Positions 4,893 through 19,263 of a stretch of DNA of 64,000 nt are shown one piece after another (position 1 is the first letter of the stretch; each line of letters opens with the position of its first letter). The DNA is from Acidobacteriaceae bacterium KBS 89. Its GTDB lineage: Bacteria; Acidobacteriota; Terriglobia; Terriglobales; Acidobacteriaceae. A program made the position numbers and the translations under genes. The stretch is taken from the NCBI GenBank assembly GCA_000381605.1, contig KB906760.1, forward strand, positions 248,001 through 312,000. Direction: 5' to 3'. The notes under the pieces were generated by a model. That model did not search any database and was not told the origin of the DNA. It saw only the letters and a program-made list of their open reading frames with translations.

Positions 4893-5573
4893 ATGACGCA
4901 GGACGAGGCGAAACAGCTGGTTGCGAAACGTGCAGTTGAGTTCGTTGAGGATGGAATGGCTGTCGGGTTGGGGACGGGTACGACCGCGACGATGTTCATC
5001 CGCGAACTTGCTACGCGTGTGCAGCAGGGACTGAAGATTCGTTGTGTGGCGTCAAGTGATGCGAGCCATGACCTTGGATTGTCGCTGGGCATGGATGTGA
5101 AGACGCTGAACGAACTACCGGAGCTGGATCTGTACGTCGATGGCGCGGATGAGGTTGGACCGGGGCTTGTTCTGATCAAGGGCGGAGGCGGTGCGTTGCT
5201 GCGGGAGAAGATTGTCGCCAGTGCGGCGAAGGAGTTCCTTGTAGTGGTGGACTCGACGAAACTGGTAGAGCGCCTGGGGAAGTTTCCGCTGCCGGTGGAG
5301 GTAGTGAAGATGGCGATGCCCGTGGTGGAGCCGAAGCTTGCCGGGCTGGGCCTGAACCCAAAGCAGAGGAAGGCCAGGAGTGGCGATGGCCTGTTCCTGA
5401 CGGATGAAGGGAATTACATTCTGGATTGCGCGTGCGGAGTGATCGAGGACCCCGAGGTGCTGGCGGCGGAGATTCGCGGGATTGTCGGCGTGGTGGAGCA
5501 TGGCCTGTTTCTGGGAATGGCGACGCTGGCGTTGGTAGCGGGAGAGGATGGCGTGACCGAGCACCGGGGATAG
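4893..5573 (+). CDS. rpiA: ribose-5-phosphate isomerase A
   Basis: This enzyme interconverts ribulose 5-phosphate and ribose 5-phosphate, linking the oxidative branch to transketolase and nucleotide synthesis. The 226-residue product has the RpiA motifs GLGTGTT near the N-terminus, DGADEV, and KGGGGALLREK, which holds the catalytic lysine and glutamate region. I use the ATG at 4893 because it has an AGGGGA ribosome binding site at 4881-4886 and starts the protein at MTQDEAKQ, as in homologues. An in-frame ATG at 4836 would add a non-conserved extension overlapping the upstream small ORF. The enzyme is cytoplasmic and its neighbours act in the same pathway. Confidence 0.95.
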   Translation: MTQDEAKQLVAKRAVEFVEDGMAVGLGTGTTATMFIRELATRVQQGLKIRCVASSDASHDLGLSLGMDVKTLNELPELDLYVDGADEVGPGLVLIKGGGGALLREKIVASAAKEFLVVVDSTKLVERLGKFPLPVEVVKMAMPVVEPKLAGLGLNPKQRKARSGDGLFLTDEGNYILDCACGVIEDPEVLAAEIRGIVGVVEHGLFLGMATLALVAGEDGVTEHRG

Positions 5574-14701: not shown

Positions 14702-14970
14702 GAGAGTTACCGGCAGGTACGACGTAAGTTGTAGACGGTCAGTGCTTAGCGGGTGTATCTTTGCTCGCACATGATGCCATGTCGGGGTGGCCCGTTCACC
14801 ACTGCTTTTCCGTAAGGCGAAGTATCATAAGAGTCACCGACAGAACAATGGCACCAGTGCCGGGAGCTGCCATTAAAATATTATTGATACACAAAAAGTG
14901 TTATGTAGTGAGGGTCATTCTGCGTTGACTTTCAACTTTCGTGACGGTACCTTCCCAAAAGAGGACACAA

Positions 14971-15159
14971 ATGAAGAAAATTTTTCTAGCAATTGCAGGC
15001 ATCGCCCTCCTCTCTTCCGTCGCCCTCCCGCTCTACGCCCAGGGCGGTTGTGTGAACTCCCCCGAAAATCCAACAGCGATCCTTGCTGTCGTGGGCTCTG
15101 CAGGTGCATTTTTCGTGTCGGCCCGCGCACGTATCAAGGCTCGTCGATCGTCGAAGTAA
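14971..15159 (+). CDS. 62-residue secreted micro-protein with PExPT-type exosortase sorting signal
   Basis: The protein starts MKKIFLAIAGIALLSSVALP with a signal peptide ending near LYA, and then has only about ten residues (QGGCVNS) before a PENPT motif at residues 31-35. The motif is followed by a hydrophobic stretch (AILAVVGSAGAFFV) and a basic tail (ARARIKARRSSK). This order of motif, transmembrane segment and arginine-rich tail is that of PEP-CTERM-like sorting signals, here of the PExPT type. An exosortase gene starts 74 bp downstream, so it is very likely the dedicated substrate. If both ends are cleaved, the product would be a peptide of roughly a dozen residues with one cysteine. A GAGGA ribosome binding site precedes the ATG. 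Function unknown. Confidence 0.85.
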   Translation: MKKIFLAIAGIALLSSVALPLYAQGGCVNSPENPTAILAVVGSAGAFFVSARARIKARRSSK

Positions 15160-15233: not shown

Positions 15234-16898
15234 ATGTTAACCTTCCCGGCTGCCGCTGAAGTCAGCCCCCTTCGTTCCACTGGAACGGCCCGGCTTGGTG
15301 TGCCTCGTGCCGCTGCATTGGCGGGACTGCTCGCTGTGCTGGGCCTCTCCACTATATGGTCCACGGTCAATGCGCTGTGGTCCTTGTGGACGAATGACGC
15401 GCTGAAGTCGATCGGGATGTTCATCCCGCTGGTCAGCTTCGTGCTGGTCATGCGGGCGTGGCGTTCGCTCGGGTGGGAGATGGAGGGCAGCTGGTGGGGC
15501 CTGGTTGTCCTGATCGTCACTACGATCGTAGTGCGTGTCAGAGACCAGTCGATCCTTGTTTTTGTGTTCTCACCGCAGTGGTCCGTCTATGTTCCTCCAC
15601 ATTCGCTGGTCTTCTTTGCGTACGGTGTGGGAATGGCTCTGCTGTTTGGCGGAACGCGGCTCTTTCGGGCAGCGTTATTTCCGCTGGTTCTTCTATGGTT
15701 CGTTAATCCGATTCCCCACATCTTCAACGTCTTTGTCGATTTGCCACTACAGCGCGCCTCCGCCCATGTTGCTCGGGGGTTTGCGATTGCGCTAGGCCAA
15801 CCCTTGAGCCCTGACCAGCTGCGCCTGATGTTTACGCCGGAGTTTGGCATGTTCATCGCTCCTGGGTGCAACGGCATCCGCGGCGCGATAACGATGGGAT
15901 TCATCGCCTTGATTGCGGGCTATGTTTATCGCTTCCGCTGGTTTGCACATACCGCCATCGTCCTCGGGGCCGTGCTGCTGGGTTATGTGTTCAACTTCGC
16001 GCGCCTCTGCATCTTGGTGCTCTATTACCTCGTCGCGCTGCACATCACCTGGCTGCAGGATCGGGCGGAGATGGGCGACTACATCATTGGTGCAGGCCTC
16101 TTTCTGCTCGGCACGTTCCTGCTCTTCTATGTTGTCCGCAGGGTGAGCGAGTCGCCGGGCCAGATCAACCCTGCAACGACGATTCCGGCGGCTGTGGCCG
16201 GTTCGGCGATGGGGCGTACCCTCTACGTTCGATTCGCGGCGGCGCTCGCTCTTGTGGTGTTCAGCTGTTATGGTGTCGCGCGCGCGTATGTGCTGACGCA
16301 TACCGGCAGCTACGCCGCCCAAACGAAGGCAGATGAGAATGCGCCGGGGCAGTTTCCCGCTCGCATTGGCGGCTATACCCTGTCGCGTTCGTGGAACGAG
16401 AACATCTTTGGCGGGCCGCTGGTTTTTCACTGGGCCCAGTATGTGCCGGTCGATGGAGGGACGCCTGTGTCTCTGGGTGTATCTCCTGTGCTTGGCTCGC
16501 ATGACACGCTGGTATGCCATTCGGCACGTGGCGAGGATCCGCTCTGGCGCGACCAGATCACGCTGCCGACTGCGGGCAATGTTCCGGTCAATTTTTCCGG
16601 ATCGTTCTTCAACGATGGCGCGACCCAATATCTCGAAGCGACCACCATCTGCAACGGTGCATCGTGCGGTGAGTACTCGAGCGACCGCACCCATTTCGGT
16701 TTTGTTTACAGCAAGCCGACTGCTCACTCCCTCTTCTCGCAGGACCCCCAGCGGCCCATTCCAATCCTGATCAAGGCTGAGACGATCGACACGACGCTTC
16801 CAGCCGACGTTGCCCGCCAGCAGATGACCGCTGCAGTTCGCTCTTTCCTCGCCTCAGTCGATCTGGATGGTCTGACTCAACCCTATCGCCACCAATAG
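15234..16898 (+). CDS. exosortase fused to EpsI-like (DUF3485) C-terminal domain
   Basis: Exosortases are multi-pass membrane cysteine transpeptidase-like enzymes that cleave PEP-CTERM-type signals. About nine hydrophobic segments fill residues 25-350. Putative catalytic residues are Cys212 in APGCNGIRG and Arg257 in FNFARLCIL. The third position, usually His, seems to be Asp282 in MGDYIIGAG. Residues about 345-554 form a periplasmic EpsI/DUF3485-like domain that is often encoded separately in other exosortase loci, so this is a fusion. It lies 74 bp after its probable substrate gene and 28 bp before an MBG/NHL lipoprotein gene. The subfamily is probably the acidobacterial one paired with PExPT signals; I could not confirm that name by search. 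Confidence 0.9.
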   Translation: MLTFPAAAEVSPLRSTGTARLGVPRAAALAGLLAVLGLSTIWSTVNALWSLWTNDALKSIGMFIPLVSFVLVMRAWRSLGWEMEGSWWGLVVLIVTTIVVRVRDQSILVFVFSPQWSVYVPPHSLVFFAYGVGMALLFGGTRLFRAALFPLVLLWFVNPIPHIFNVFVDLPLQRASAHVARGFAIALGQPLSPDQLRLMFTPEFGMFIAPGCNGIRGAITMGFIALIAGYVYRFRWFAHTAIVLGAVLLGYVFNFARLCILVLYYLVALHITWLQDRAEMGDYIIGAGLFLLGTFLLFYVVRRVSESPGQINPATTIPAAVAGSAMGRTLYVRFAAALALVVFSCYGVARAYVLTHTGSYAAQTKADENAPGQFPARIGGYTLSRSWNENIFGGPLVFHWAQYVPVDGGTPVSLGVSPVLGSHDTLVCHSARGEDPLWRDQITLPTAGNVPVNFSGSFFNDGATQYLEATTICNGASCGEYSSDRTHFGFVYSKPTAHSLFSQDPQRPIPILIKAETIDTTLPADVARQQMTAAVRSFLASVDLDGLTQPYRHQ

Positions 16899-16926: not shown

Positions 16927-19263
16927 GTGAGATCATTCCTTCGCAGTGTCCAGGTCCCTTTCGTCGTGGTGATGACCGGCGTTCTTTCTTTTTCTCTTGC
17001 GGGCTGCGGTGGATCCAGTGCCCCGGTCACGCATCCGACCCTCACCGTCACCGCGGCGAATGCGAGCCGAGTCTACGGGGCTGCTAATCCAGTCTTTGCC
17101 GTTTCGGCCAGTGGAGCGTCTTCCGGTGATACCTTCACCTTGACCGCCTCCACCGTCGCGACGCCTTCTTCTGCTGCCGGCACTTACTCGATAGTTCCCG
17201 CCGCCACAGGCGGCAATCTTGCCAACTACAACGTCGTTTACGTCAACGGTACCCTGACCGTCGGCAAGGCCTCCCTGACAGTCACGCCCAACAACCAGAG
17301 CGCCGTCGCAGGATCTGTGCTCCCCACTCTCTCCGCCGCCATCACGGGCTATGTCAATGGAGATCCGCAGACTGTCGTCACTGGCTCCCCGGCTTTGACG
17401 ACCACCGCAACCTCCTCTTCTCCGGCCGGCACTTATCCGATTACCGCGACTCTTGGAACTCTCGCCGCCGCCAATTACAGCTTTACCTTCGGAACCGGCA
17501 CCCTCACCCTCACTCCAGCGAGCAACTCCGGTGTCGGCTTCAGTGGTATGGCAAAGGCGGGCACGCAGCCGATTGTTGGAGCCGCTGTTCAGCTCTACGC
17601 GGCAGGTACGACCGGAAATGGCTCTGCTGGAACCGCTCTCCTGAGCAACAATCTAACCACCGATGCAGCTGGGGCCTTCACGGTTCCCGGTGGATACGCC
17701 TGCCCGGCGGCAGCTTCGCAGCTTTACGTCGTCGTCCGCGGAGGACAGGCCGGAGCCGGTGCCAATCCAGCCATCGCTCTCGCCACGCCGATCGGCGCCT
17801 GTAACAAGCTCGCATCCGGCGCGCAGTTCGTCATCAACGAAGTCACGACCGCTGCCACGGCATACGGCTTATCGCAGTTCCTCAGCGCCGGGGGCAACAT
17901 CGGAGCAACTTCGACCAACGCCCAAGGCCTCGCCAACGCTGTAGCGACGGTAGCCAGCCTTGCCAACCTGACGACAGGCACATCGCCCGGAGTCCTCCCG
18001 CAAAACGGGACGTCGCCCGCCGCAAAGATCAACTCCCTCGCCAATCTGTTGCACAACTGCACGGCAAATGCCCCTCCGGCAGGCTGCACCCCGCTTTTCT
18101 CTGCAACGACTCCCAGCGGCGGGACCGCTCCGACCAACACGCTGGATGCCGTGCTCAATCTCGTGCGCAATCCAGGGACCAACGTCGCCGCGCTCTACAC
18201 GCAGTCGACCGCCAGCACTGTGTTTTCGCCCGCGCTGACCGCAGCGCCCTCGGACTGGACGATGTTCATCAATTTTACTGGCGGCGGCATGAATGGGCCC
18301 TCTGGCCTTGGCGTCGACACCACCGGCAACGTCTGGGTCGCCAGCTATTACAGTGCCGCATCGCAGTTCTCGCCGACTGGCAGCCCGATTTTCCCGAACG
18401 GTATCACCTCGGGCGGCCTCTACCATTCCTACGGGCTCGCCGTCGACGCTCAAAACAGCGCGTGGATTCCGAACGAAGACACTACCCTTTCAGGTGTCAA
18501 CAACAAGCTGGGGAACGTGACTGTCCTTAACTCATCCGGCCAACCGACATCCGGCACGGACGGCTACTTCGCCGGTGGAATTTACTATCCGATTGCAGTC
18601 GCCATCGACACAAACGCGACTGCGTGGGTGATCAACTACGGCAATTCCAGTCTTACGCTGCTTTCCAGCACAGGTCAGCCACTATCAGGCACGACAGGAT
18701 ATGCTTCGCCGCAGCTCGCGTTTCCAGTGGCGATAGCCATCGACGCAAACCACAACGGCTGGGTGGCGAACCAGCAAGACGTTACCGTGACCAAGGTGTC
18801 GCCCGACGGCAAACAGTTCAACAGCTACGCCTGCTGCAACGGAGCTTCGGGCATCGCCATCGATCAGCGCGGCTTTGTGTGGGTTGCCAATTACTATGGC
18901 GACAGCATTAGTCAGCTTGCGAGCGACGGGACCGTGGTTTCCAACGGATACAGCGACAACAAGGCCAGCATCTGGCATCCGCAGGGCATCGCCATCGACG
19001 GGTCGGGCCACGTCTGGGTAACAAATTTCTTTGGGTCGTCTATTACAGAGTTGGCCGGTTCTACCTCAAGCTCCCCGGGGCAGATCCTATCGCCGACTGC
19101 CGGCTGGTCGCGGGACGCAAATATTGTCGAGGGGTTTGCTATCGCGATCGACGCGAGCGGCAACCTGTGGATCACGAACTTCTTCACCAACACCCTGACG
19201 GAGATCGTCGGGTTGGCGACTCCGGTGAAAACGCCGCAGTCAGGACCGGTGCAGACGCCGTAA
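16927..19263 (+). CDS. secreted lipoprotein with MBG and NHL-type beta-propeller repeats
   Basis: A 778-residue exported protein starting at GTG 16927. It has a signal peptide and a lipobox LAGC (Cys near residue 27), so it is likely an outer- or inner-membrane lipoprotein. Two MBG-type immunoglobulin-like repeats with YGAANPVF and GTLTVGKASL-type strands fill about residues 36-195. A short transthyretin-like segment follows (about 205-265), then a mostly Ala/Asn/Thr-rich helical region. From about residue 440 come six or so NHL/Vgb-like blades with repeats of the form GIAIDxxGxVWVxNxxxxSI. Such proteins are abundant in acidobacterial secretomes; their ligands are unknown. The 28-bp gap to the exosortase gene suggests the same transcript. 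Confidence 0.85.
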   Translation: MRSFLRSVQVPFVVVMTGVLSFSLAGCGGSSAPVTHPTLTVTAANASRVYGAANPVFAVSASGASSGDTFTLTASTVATPSSAAGTYSIVPAATGGNLANYNVVYVNGTLTVGKASLTVTPNNQSAVAGSVLPTLSAAITGYVNGDPQTVVTGSPALTTTATSSSPAGTYPITATLGTLAAANYSFTFGTGTLTLTPASNSGVGFSGMAKAGTQPIVGAAVQLYAAGTTGNGSAGTALLSNNLTTDAAGAFTVPGGYACPAAASQLYVVVRGGQAGAGANPAIALATPIGACNKLASGAQFVINEVTTAATAYGLSQFLSAGGNIGATSTNAQGLANAVATVASLANLTTGTSPGVLPQNGTSPAAKINSLANLLHNCTANAPPAGCTPLFSATTPSGGTAPTNTLDAVLNLVRNPGTNVAALYTQSTASTVFSPALTAAPSDWTMFINFTGGGMNGPSGLGVDTTGNVWVASYYSAASQFSPTGSPIFPNGITSGGLYHSYGLAVDAQNSAWIPNEDTTLSGVNNKLGNVTVLNSSGQPTSGTDGYFAGGIYYPIAVAIDTNATAWVINYGNSSLTLLSSTGQPLSGTTGYASPQLAFPVAIAIDANHNGWVANQQDVTVTKVSPDGKQFNSYACCNGASGIAIDQRGFVWVANYYGDSISQLASDGTVVSNGYSDNKASIWHPQGIAIDGSGHVWVTNFFGSSITELAGSTSSSPGQILSPTAGWSRDANIVEGFAIAIDASGNLWITNFFTNTLTEIVGLATPVKTPQSGPVQTP

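Follow-up and report, generated by a model that had tools for sequence, protein, structure and literature searches.

The stretch of DNA analysed here, 64,000 nucleotides from contig KB906760.1 of Acidobacteriaceae bacterium KBS 89 (assembly GCA_000381605.1, positions 248,001 to 312,000; hereafter the window), contains on its forward strand a micro-ORF and, adjacent to it, the gene for an exosortase, followed by the gene for a predicted lipoprotein (Table 1). The start, stop and translation that an earlier note on this DNA had given for the micro-ORF (ATG at 14971, TAA at 15157–15159, 62 aa) are correct, and its product reads MKKIFLAIAGIALLSSVALPLYAQGGCVNSPENPTAILAVVGSAGAFFVSARARIKARRSSK. The parts that had been described, namely a signal peptide, a short Cys-bearing mature stretch, PENPT, a membrane segment and an Arg/Lys tail, are likewise all seen in the sequence. 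The signal peptide opens with KK at its N terminus and continues as a hydrophobic stretch up to LYA/Q, a pattern from which export via Sec and cleavage by signal peptidase I after LYA are predicted; the tail reads SARARIKARRSSK where the hydrophobic run is counted as residues 36–49. A loose architecture filter devised after the ORF was seen (signal-like stretch, PE.PT, hydrophobic stretch and at least three R/K) retained one ORF in the window, compared with none in 50 mononucleotide shuffles.

Table 1. Features of the micro-ORF, its upstream element and the two genes downstream (window coordinates)
Feature	Position	Strand	Basis
Two-box element AAAAGTGTTA-N17-TGCGTTGACTTT, probably the promoter/operator serving the micro-ORF and XrtJ	14894..14932	+	same-genus alignment
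PExPT-CTERM micro-protein, 62 aa (TIGR04200)	14971..15159	+	translation; 88.1 bits
Predicted Sec signal peptide, residues 1–23, LYA/Q site	14971..15039	+	sequence pattern
Mature stretch QGGCVNSPENPT, residues 24–35, with Cys27 and PENPT	15040..15075	+	alignment, pN/pS
Short membrane segment, residues 36 to about 49–50	15076..15120	+	hydropathy
Basic C-terminal tail ARARIKARRSSK	15121..15156	+	R/K count
Exosortase J (XrtJ), 554 aa, exosortase core and C-terminal part	15234..16898	+	TIGR04199, PF09721
XrtJ Cys212, predicted nucleophile	15867..15869	+	invariant; aligned to the Cys of canonical exosortases
XrtJ Arg257, predicted catalytic Arg	16002..16004	+	invariant; aligns with canonical Arg
XrtJ Asp282, where canonical exosortases have the catalytic His	16077..16079	+	invariant; profile alignment
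Predicted lipoprotein, MBG_2 and NHL-type repeats, 778 aa, downstream of XrtJ	16927..19263	+	Pfam; lipobox LAGC by eye

The micro-ORF product matches the NCBIfam family TIGR04200 (targ_of_XrtJ, PExPT-CTERM protein) with 88.1 bits (cut-off 40, E = 2.3e-25) over positions 3–57 of the 57-position profile, and it displays the PENPT motif, the hydrophobic stretch (residues 36–49) and the basic tail of a PExPT-CTERM protein. Among its NCBIfam families at E up to 10, classical PEP-CTERM (TIGR02595) is absent, and the entry found besides TIGR04200, LPXTG_anchor (E = 0.19), lies below its cut-off. The downstream neighbour scores 652.2 bits against TIGR04199 (exosortase J, cut-off 200) and also matches PF09721, confirming it as the exosortase that had been recognized beside the micro-ORF. 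With near full-length matches over curated cut-offs and adjacent genes, the window pair differs in nothing essential from the TIGR04200/TIGR04199 pair and is a member of it. The TIGR04200 model and the protein are of about equal length, so the family was already known to its curators as small and was presumed to be the XrtJ target. The earlier note's picture of a tag-only substrate, presumably reserved for the exosortase encoded next to it, stands. A tag-only exosortase target is not new as such, NCBIfam naming this small family as the target of XrtJ. The biology of the catalogued pair is little studied; in the open papers searched the terms 'PExPT-CTERM' and 'exosortase J' were not found, XrtJ was not found among those listed for exosortase or PEP-CTERM, and none combining exosortase with Granulicella was found.

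The catalytic residues of canonical exosortases are Cys-Arg-His. XrtJ retains the Cys and the Arg and lacks the His: C212, R257, D282 and G286 are invariant across 43 aligned XrtJ sequences, and profile-based comparison to seven canonical exosortases (alignment probability 99.4, E = 1.3e-21) places the canonical His opposite D282, giving D-x3-G in XrtJ versus H-x3-G in the canonical enzymes, while MAFFT alone sets D282 one column off the canonical His. The Asp-for-His swap is thus well supported by profile alignment, and a catalytic role for D282 is predicted; XrtJ still scores as an exosortase despite the change. A second difference from canonical exosortases is the additional C-terminal part, of which residues 297–554 gave no Pfam match. 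Its identification as EpsI/DUF3485 was considered and is not supported, given the lack of a Pfam match and a profile alignment probability of 0.2. Searches by sequence for solved relatives of XrtJ returned none that is convincing (two matches, E = 0.35 and 0.77), and Foldseek, run with a structure model of moderate confidence (mean pLDDT 79.7), found no solved counterpart at E = 0.001 or better.

Across 299 genomes of the class, TIGR04200 exceeds its cut-off in 25 and TIGR04199 in 24. All 24 genomes with XrtJ also carry PExPT, and PExPT occurs alone only in G242 (Fisher p = 1.5e-34, uncorrected for relatedness); within the genus (n = 28), 18 genomes hold both, one holds PExPT only and nine hold neither (Fisher p = 1.4e-6, also uncorrected for relatedness). 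The class scan yielded 29 XrtJ genes and 37 PExPT genes over the cut-offs. A PExPT gene is adjacent to 26 of the 29 XrtJ genes, the three exceptions (L073, L074 and L075) being extra XrtJ copies in genomes that hold another XrtJ with PExPT, and 11 of the 37 PExPT genes are not beside XrtJ; one of these is a second copy in the window's own genome (C2:916608), 80% identical over residues 7–62. A second scan, by XrtJ profile, gave 48 named loci from Edaphobacter, Granulicella, Bryocella, Terracidiphilus and other Acidobacteriaceae (a few are labelled as other groups), 41 of which have a PExPT ORF 3–299 nt upstream of XrtJ on the same strand; this set overlaps in genomes with that of the class scan, and the two are not independent. 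In L147 the PExPT ORF lies 3.6 kb from XrtJ on the opposite strand, and no PExPT ORF was found by pattern at L123, L125, L127, L138 (which covers just 148 bases upstream of XrtJ), L146 or L149. The earlier note had made its proposal conditional on conservation of the short ORF beside related exosortases, and the micro-ORF is conserved there in both scans. In a scan of the phylum, 17 of 396 genomes match, all within the window's family, and no plasmid copies of the micro-ORF were found at E = 0.01. In G242, where XrtJ found no match at E = 1e-8, the PExPT gene is intact and the usual neighbours are in place, but XrtJ and the NHL lipoprotein are missing from between them (L072; C16:275000-293000).

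In all, 79 PExPT sequences were extracted (37 profile matches and 42 found by a pattern requiring Cys), of which 63 are distinct in the portion that starts eight residues ahead of the Cys and runs to the C terminus. When 23 of the 37 profile matches are aligned, G26, C27, P31, E32, P34 and T35 do not vary. All 63 distinct sequences have the Cys, Pro, Glu and Pro of C-x2-SPExPT, 62 have the Thr and 57 a Gly before the Cys; the first four residues are present by construction in the 42 pattern-found sequences, whereas 37/37 profile matches have the Cys without such selection. Upstream of the Cys, an A/G-Q junction occurs in 58 of the 63, at a distance that ranges from 3 to 10 residues. As this length is variable, Cys to Thr is the fixed unit, although two sequences have one additional residue right after the Cys. 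The 15 residues that follow the Thr have a mean hydropathy with a median of 1.97 (range 1.07–2.76), and the tail contains 3–8 R/K (median 6).

An invariant cysteine, preceded in most sequences by Gly, would also be expected if Cys27 were acylated and XrtJ then removed the helix, leaving a lipid-anchored dodecapeptide. The residues nearby speak against this. The lipobox pattern is [LVI][AST][GA]C, and the micro-protein reads AQGGC at Cys27; a lipobox-like V, L or I stands at −3 in 11/63 sequences, but 44/63, including the window protein, have Gln there, a non-lipobox residue, and Gln at −3 together with the A/G-Q junction fits signal peptidase I rather than a lipobox. Acylation has been proposed for the invariant Cys of MYXO-CTERM. 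That tag likewise has a short motif with the Cys, a helix and an Arg-rich tail, and cleavage of TraA by myxosortase depends on the MYXO-CTERM cysteines (PMC11980579). The two systems nevertheless differ. The MYXO-CTERM Cys lies at the proposed cut and that of PExPT four residues before the PExPT motif, MYXO-CTERM carrier proteins typically number dozens per genome (PMC11980579), and myxosortase belongs to a different enzyme family, unrelated in type to XrtJ. We consider acylation of Cys27 unlikely.

The size of the substrates was addressed with a profile of the tag alone (Gly-Cys to the end), which gave 37 matches at E = 5e-9 or better in the 25 genomes (in G000, G115 and G166, the first 150 of 157–186 candidates were scored). 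The open frames of all 37 family matches measure 69–105 aa, the next-best match falls at E = 0.04, and no long protein with a PExPT tag detectable by this profile was found in the 25 genomes. Long PExPT proteins as extra XrtJ targets were also sought in the 299 genomes and rejected, no long-frame match rising above background (first 25 candidates per genome scored; best non-family E about 0.0027); ten tag matches fell at E = 0.0026–0.02, five of which (L029 and L177–L180) look like chance. In L149, a lichen MAG, a 128-aa protein (5149–5535) encoded upstream of XrtJ (318 bits) carries near its end the PExPT-like tag CTPSPENGTALLAVLGVAGLLSGRFGYRR (PENGT) and scores 24.2 bits against TIGR04200, below the cut-off, with the match restricted to the tag. 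A substrate tag borne by a larger cargo would be expected to have this appearance.

Classical PEP-CTERM/EpsH-type systems (TIGR02595, PF09721, XrtA-like) share with the window pair a tripartite C-terminal tag and the exosortase core Cys and Arg; unlike theirs, the XrtJ substrates found are tag-only. TIGR02595 has matches in 21 of the 25 genomes, and in the window's own genome, which has 21 matches, the open frames span 206–391 aa among the 11 of 21 listed. Short ones are few and lie in other genomes (59, 69 and 114 aa, among the matches listed), and G115, G254, G287 and G290 have XrtJ and PExPT yet no PEP-CTERM match. A second exosortase in the window's own genome (L101; C4:191081) reaches 209.7 bits, barely over the XrtA cut-off of 208, and presumably serves the long PEP-CTERM proteins; the contrast with the usual long substrates, which the earlier note had drawn in general terms, is thus found within one genome. 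L101 is canonical and is followed by a DUF3485 (EpsI-type) gene.

The tight linkage with xrtJ, the two hydrophobic segments of the micro-protein and the many genomes with one profile match and one XrtJ could also describe a two-helix protein that stays uncleaved and serves XrtJ as accessory subunit or regulator rather than as substrate. With 11 of 37 copies unlinked, the tag also present on the longer protein of L149, and the signal peptidase junction kept while the signal peptide drifts, such a role appears distinctly unlikely.

Constraint was compared along the protein in 11 same-genus copies (10 beside XrtJ and that of G242). With the copies pooled, the signal peptide has a pN/pS of 0.44, the mature stretch one of 0.074, and the helix and tail one of 0.135, against 0.22 for the whole ORF; the ratios are rough because pS is high (0.50–0.75). 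The whole-ORF value supports translation of the micro-ORF, and the mature stretch is its most constrained part. The two-box element upstream is present (≤3 mismatches of 22) in 15 of the 18 same-genus copies linked to XrtJ, each time at 77 nt from the start codon, and in 0/7 unlinked same-genus copies; the remaining 3/18 linked copies lack it. In the window's own genome it occurs solely at this site at the same threshold (reversed control, 0). A regulon sharing the element was considered and rejected on account of this single site. A sigma-70 scan upstream of the micro-ORF gave no plus-strand site, and the promoter role of the element is probable.

A small peptide with a double-cut architecture and its own upstream element might be a signal or pheromone, secreted after cleavage at both ends. 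The mature peptide is, however, the segment most conserved across species (pN/pS 0.074), which argues against a diversifying, species-specific pheromone and makes a released signal very unlikely. That the micro-ORF is spurious or the decayed remnant of a former substrate, as its very short length and the retention of PExPT without XrtJ in G242 might suggest, is extremely improbable in view of the codon constraint, the many distinct sequences with the same motif and the curated family.

Unlinked copies were examined for the company they keep. Two PECPT-type copies (G287 C3 and G083 C10) immediately precede Poly_export/SLBB and Wzz/GNVR genes, and another copy (G290) adjoins a nucleotidyl transferase gene, so that 3 of the 11 unlinked copies are beside polysaccharide or sugar-nucleotide genes. 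The Pfam neighbour scan covered 7 of the 11; for the other four of these seven (L063, two copies in L064, and L067) the scanned neighbours are not polysaccharide or sugar-nucleotide genes, with the exception of a GH28 glycosidase in L067, that of L064 being a TPR/MerR-type protein. The second copy of the window's own genome sits between a DNA polymerase X-like and a YmdB-like gene and is uninformative. A 2006 paper reported that PEP-CTERM systems are associated with exopolysaccharide (PMC1569441); together with the polysaccharide-linked copies, this weakly favours a surface or coat role for the PExPT peptide. The PECPT-type micro-genes by polysaccharide export genes (L068:8932-9189 and L069:8565-8831) are of a shorter type, and in G091 two PExPT micro-genes stand in tandem, away from XrtJ (L064:7692-8318).

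From family membership, linkage, tag-only size, conservation and constraint, all computed directly, we infer a pathway of export, two cuts and transfer to an acceptor, with a role at the surface or in a polysaccharide coat. The micro-ORF probably encodes a tag-only protein that is exported by Sec, cut by XrtJ as its substrate and joined to an acceptor at the surface. Sec would export the micro-protein and signal peptidase I would trim it after LYA, while the C-terminal helix and basic tail would hold it in the inner membrane with PENPT at the outer face. XrtJ would then cut at or near PENPT via Cys212 and Arg257, probably with Asp282 replacing His, and link the C-terminus thus formed to an amine group of a lipid or glycan. 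A surface-fixed peptide of about 11–12 residues would result, with the invariant cysteine as its useful group. A transpeptidase-like outcome of this kind has been suggested for exosortases (PMC11980579).

The substrate reading is supported by the TIGR04200 and TIGR04199 family matches, the co-occurrence and adjacency of PExPT and XrtJ, the tag-only size and the constraint peak in the mature stretch, and the 128-aa tagged protein of L149 counts in the same direction. Also in its favour are the second, canonical exosortase and long PEP-CTERM proteins of the same genome and the unlinked copies at Poly_export/SLBB, Wzz/GNVR and nucleotidyl transferase genes. Against it stand three of 29 XrtJ genes and L123, L125, L127 and L146 without a recognizable PExPT ORF in the stretch examined, the intact PExPT gene of G242 without an XrtJ match, the four scanned unlinked copies that are not at polysaccharide genes, the missing canonical His of XrtJ, and the upstream element missing from 3 of 18 linked same-genus copies. 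A bolder possibility, which we raise tentatively and regard as doubtful, is that XrtJ is a Cys-Arg-Asp enzyme for peptide tagging and not for protein sorting, its normal substrates being nothing but tags through which surface lipid or exopolysaccharide acquires a conserved dodecapeptide with a thiol, and extra copies lying at polysaccharide-export clusters.

To the catalogued pair, the present computational analysis adds the quantified linkage, the near absence of long substrates and the constrained 12-residue stretch with its fixed Cys, as well as a single relative with a long cargo, the replacement of His by Asp and the extra copies linked to polysaccharide genes. Large surface proteins make it difficult to work out exosortase chemistry (the cut site and the acceptor). 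The presumed natural substrate, with about 12 mature residues and a gene next to that of the enzyme, occurs in genera of which strains are in culture; it is small enough for intact mass spectrometry and could reveal directly what an exosortase attaches. If the peptide does end on polysaccharide, exosortases would be able to modify the coat, beyond protein sorting.

Among the Pfam-scanned window genes around the micro-ORF (an M1 peptidase, XrtJ, the MBG/NHL protein and a TonB-type barrel) there is no peptide-modifying enzyme of a natural-product cluster. Homologues of the lipoprotein downstream of XrtJ (tblastn, E = 1e-10 or better) occur in 26 of the 48 named XrtJ loci, some of which cover little downstream sequence, and 25 of them are on the XrtJ strand. 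In one MAG contig (L121:7001-8569), the XrtJ match contains one stop codon, the mark of a broken gene or of an assembly error. In L077, L078, L097 and L098, a protein of ~1000 aa follows XrtJ in place of the lipoprotein, and the one copy scanned, that of L077, contains POTRA/Omp85.
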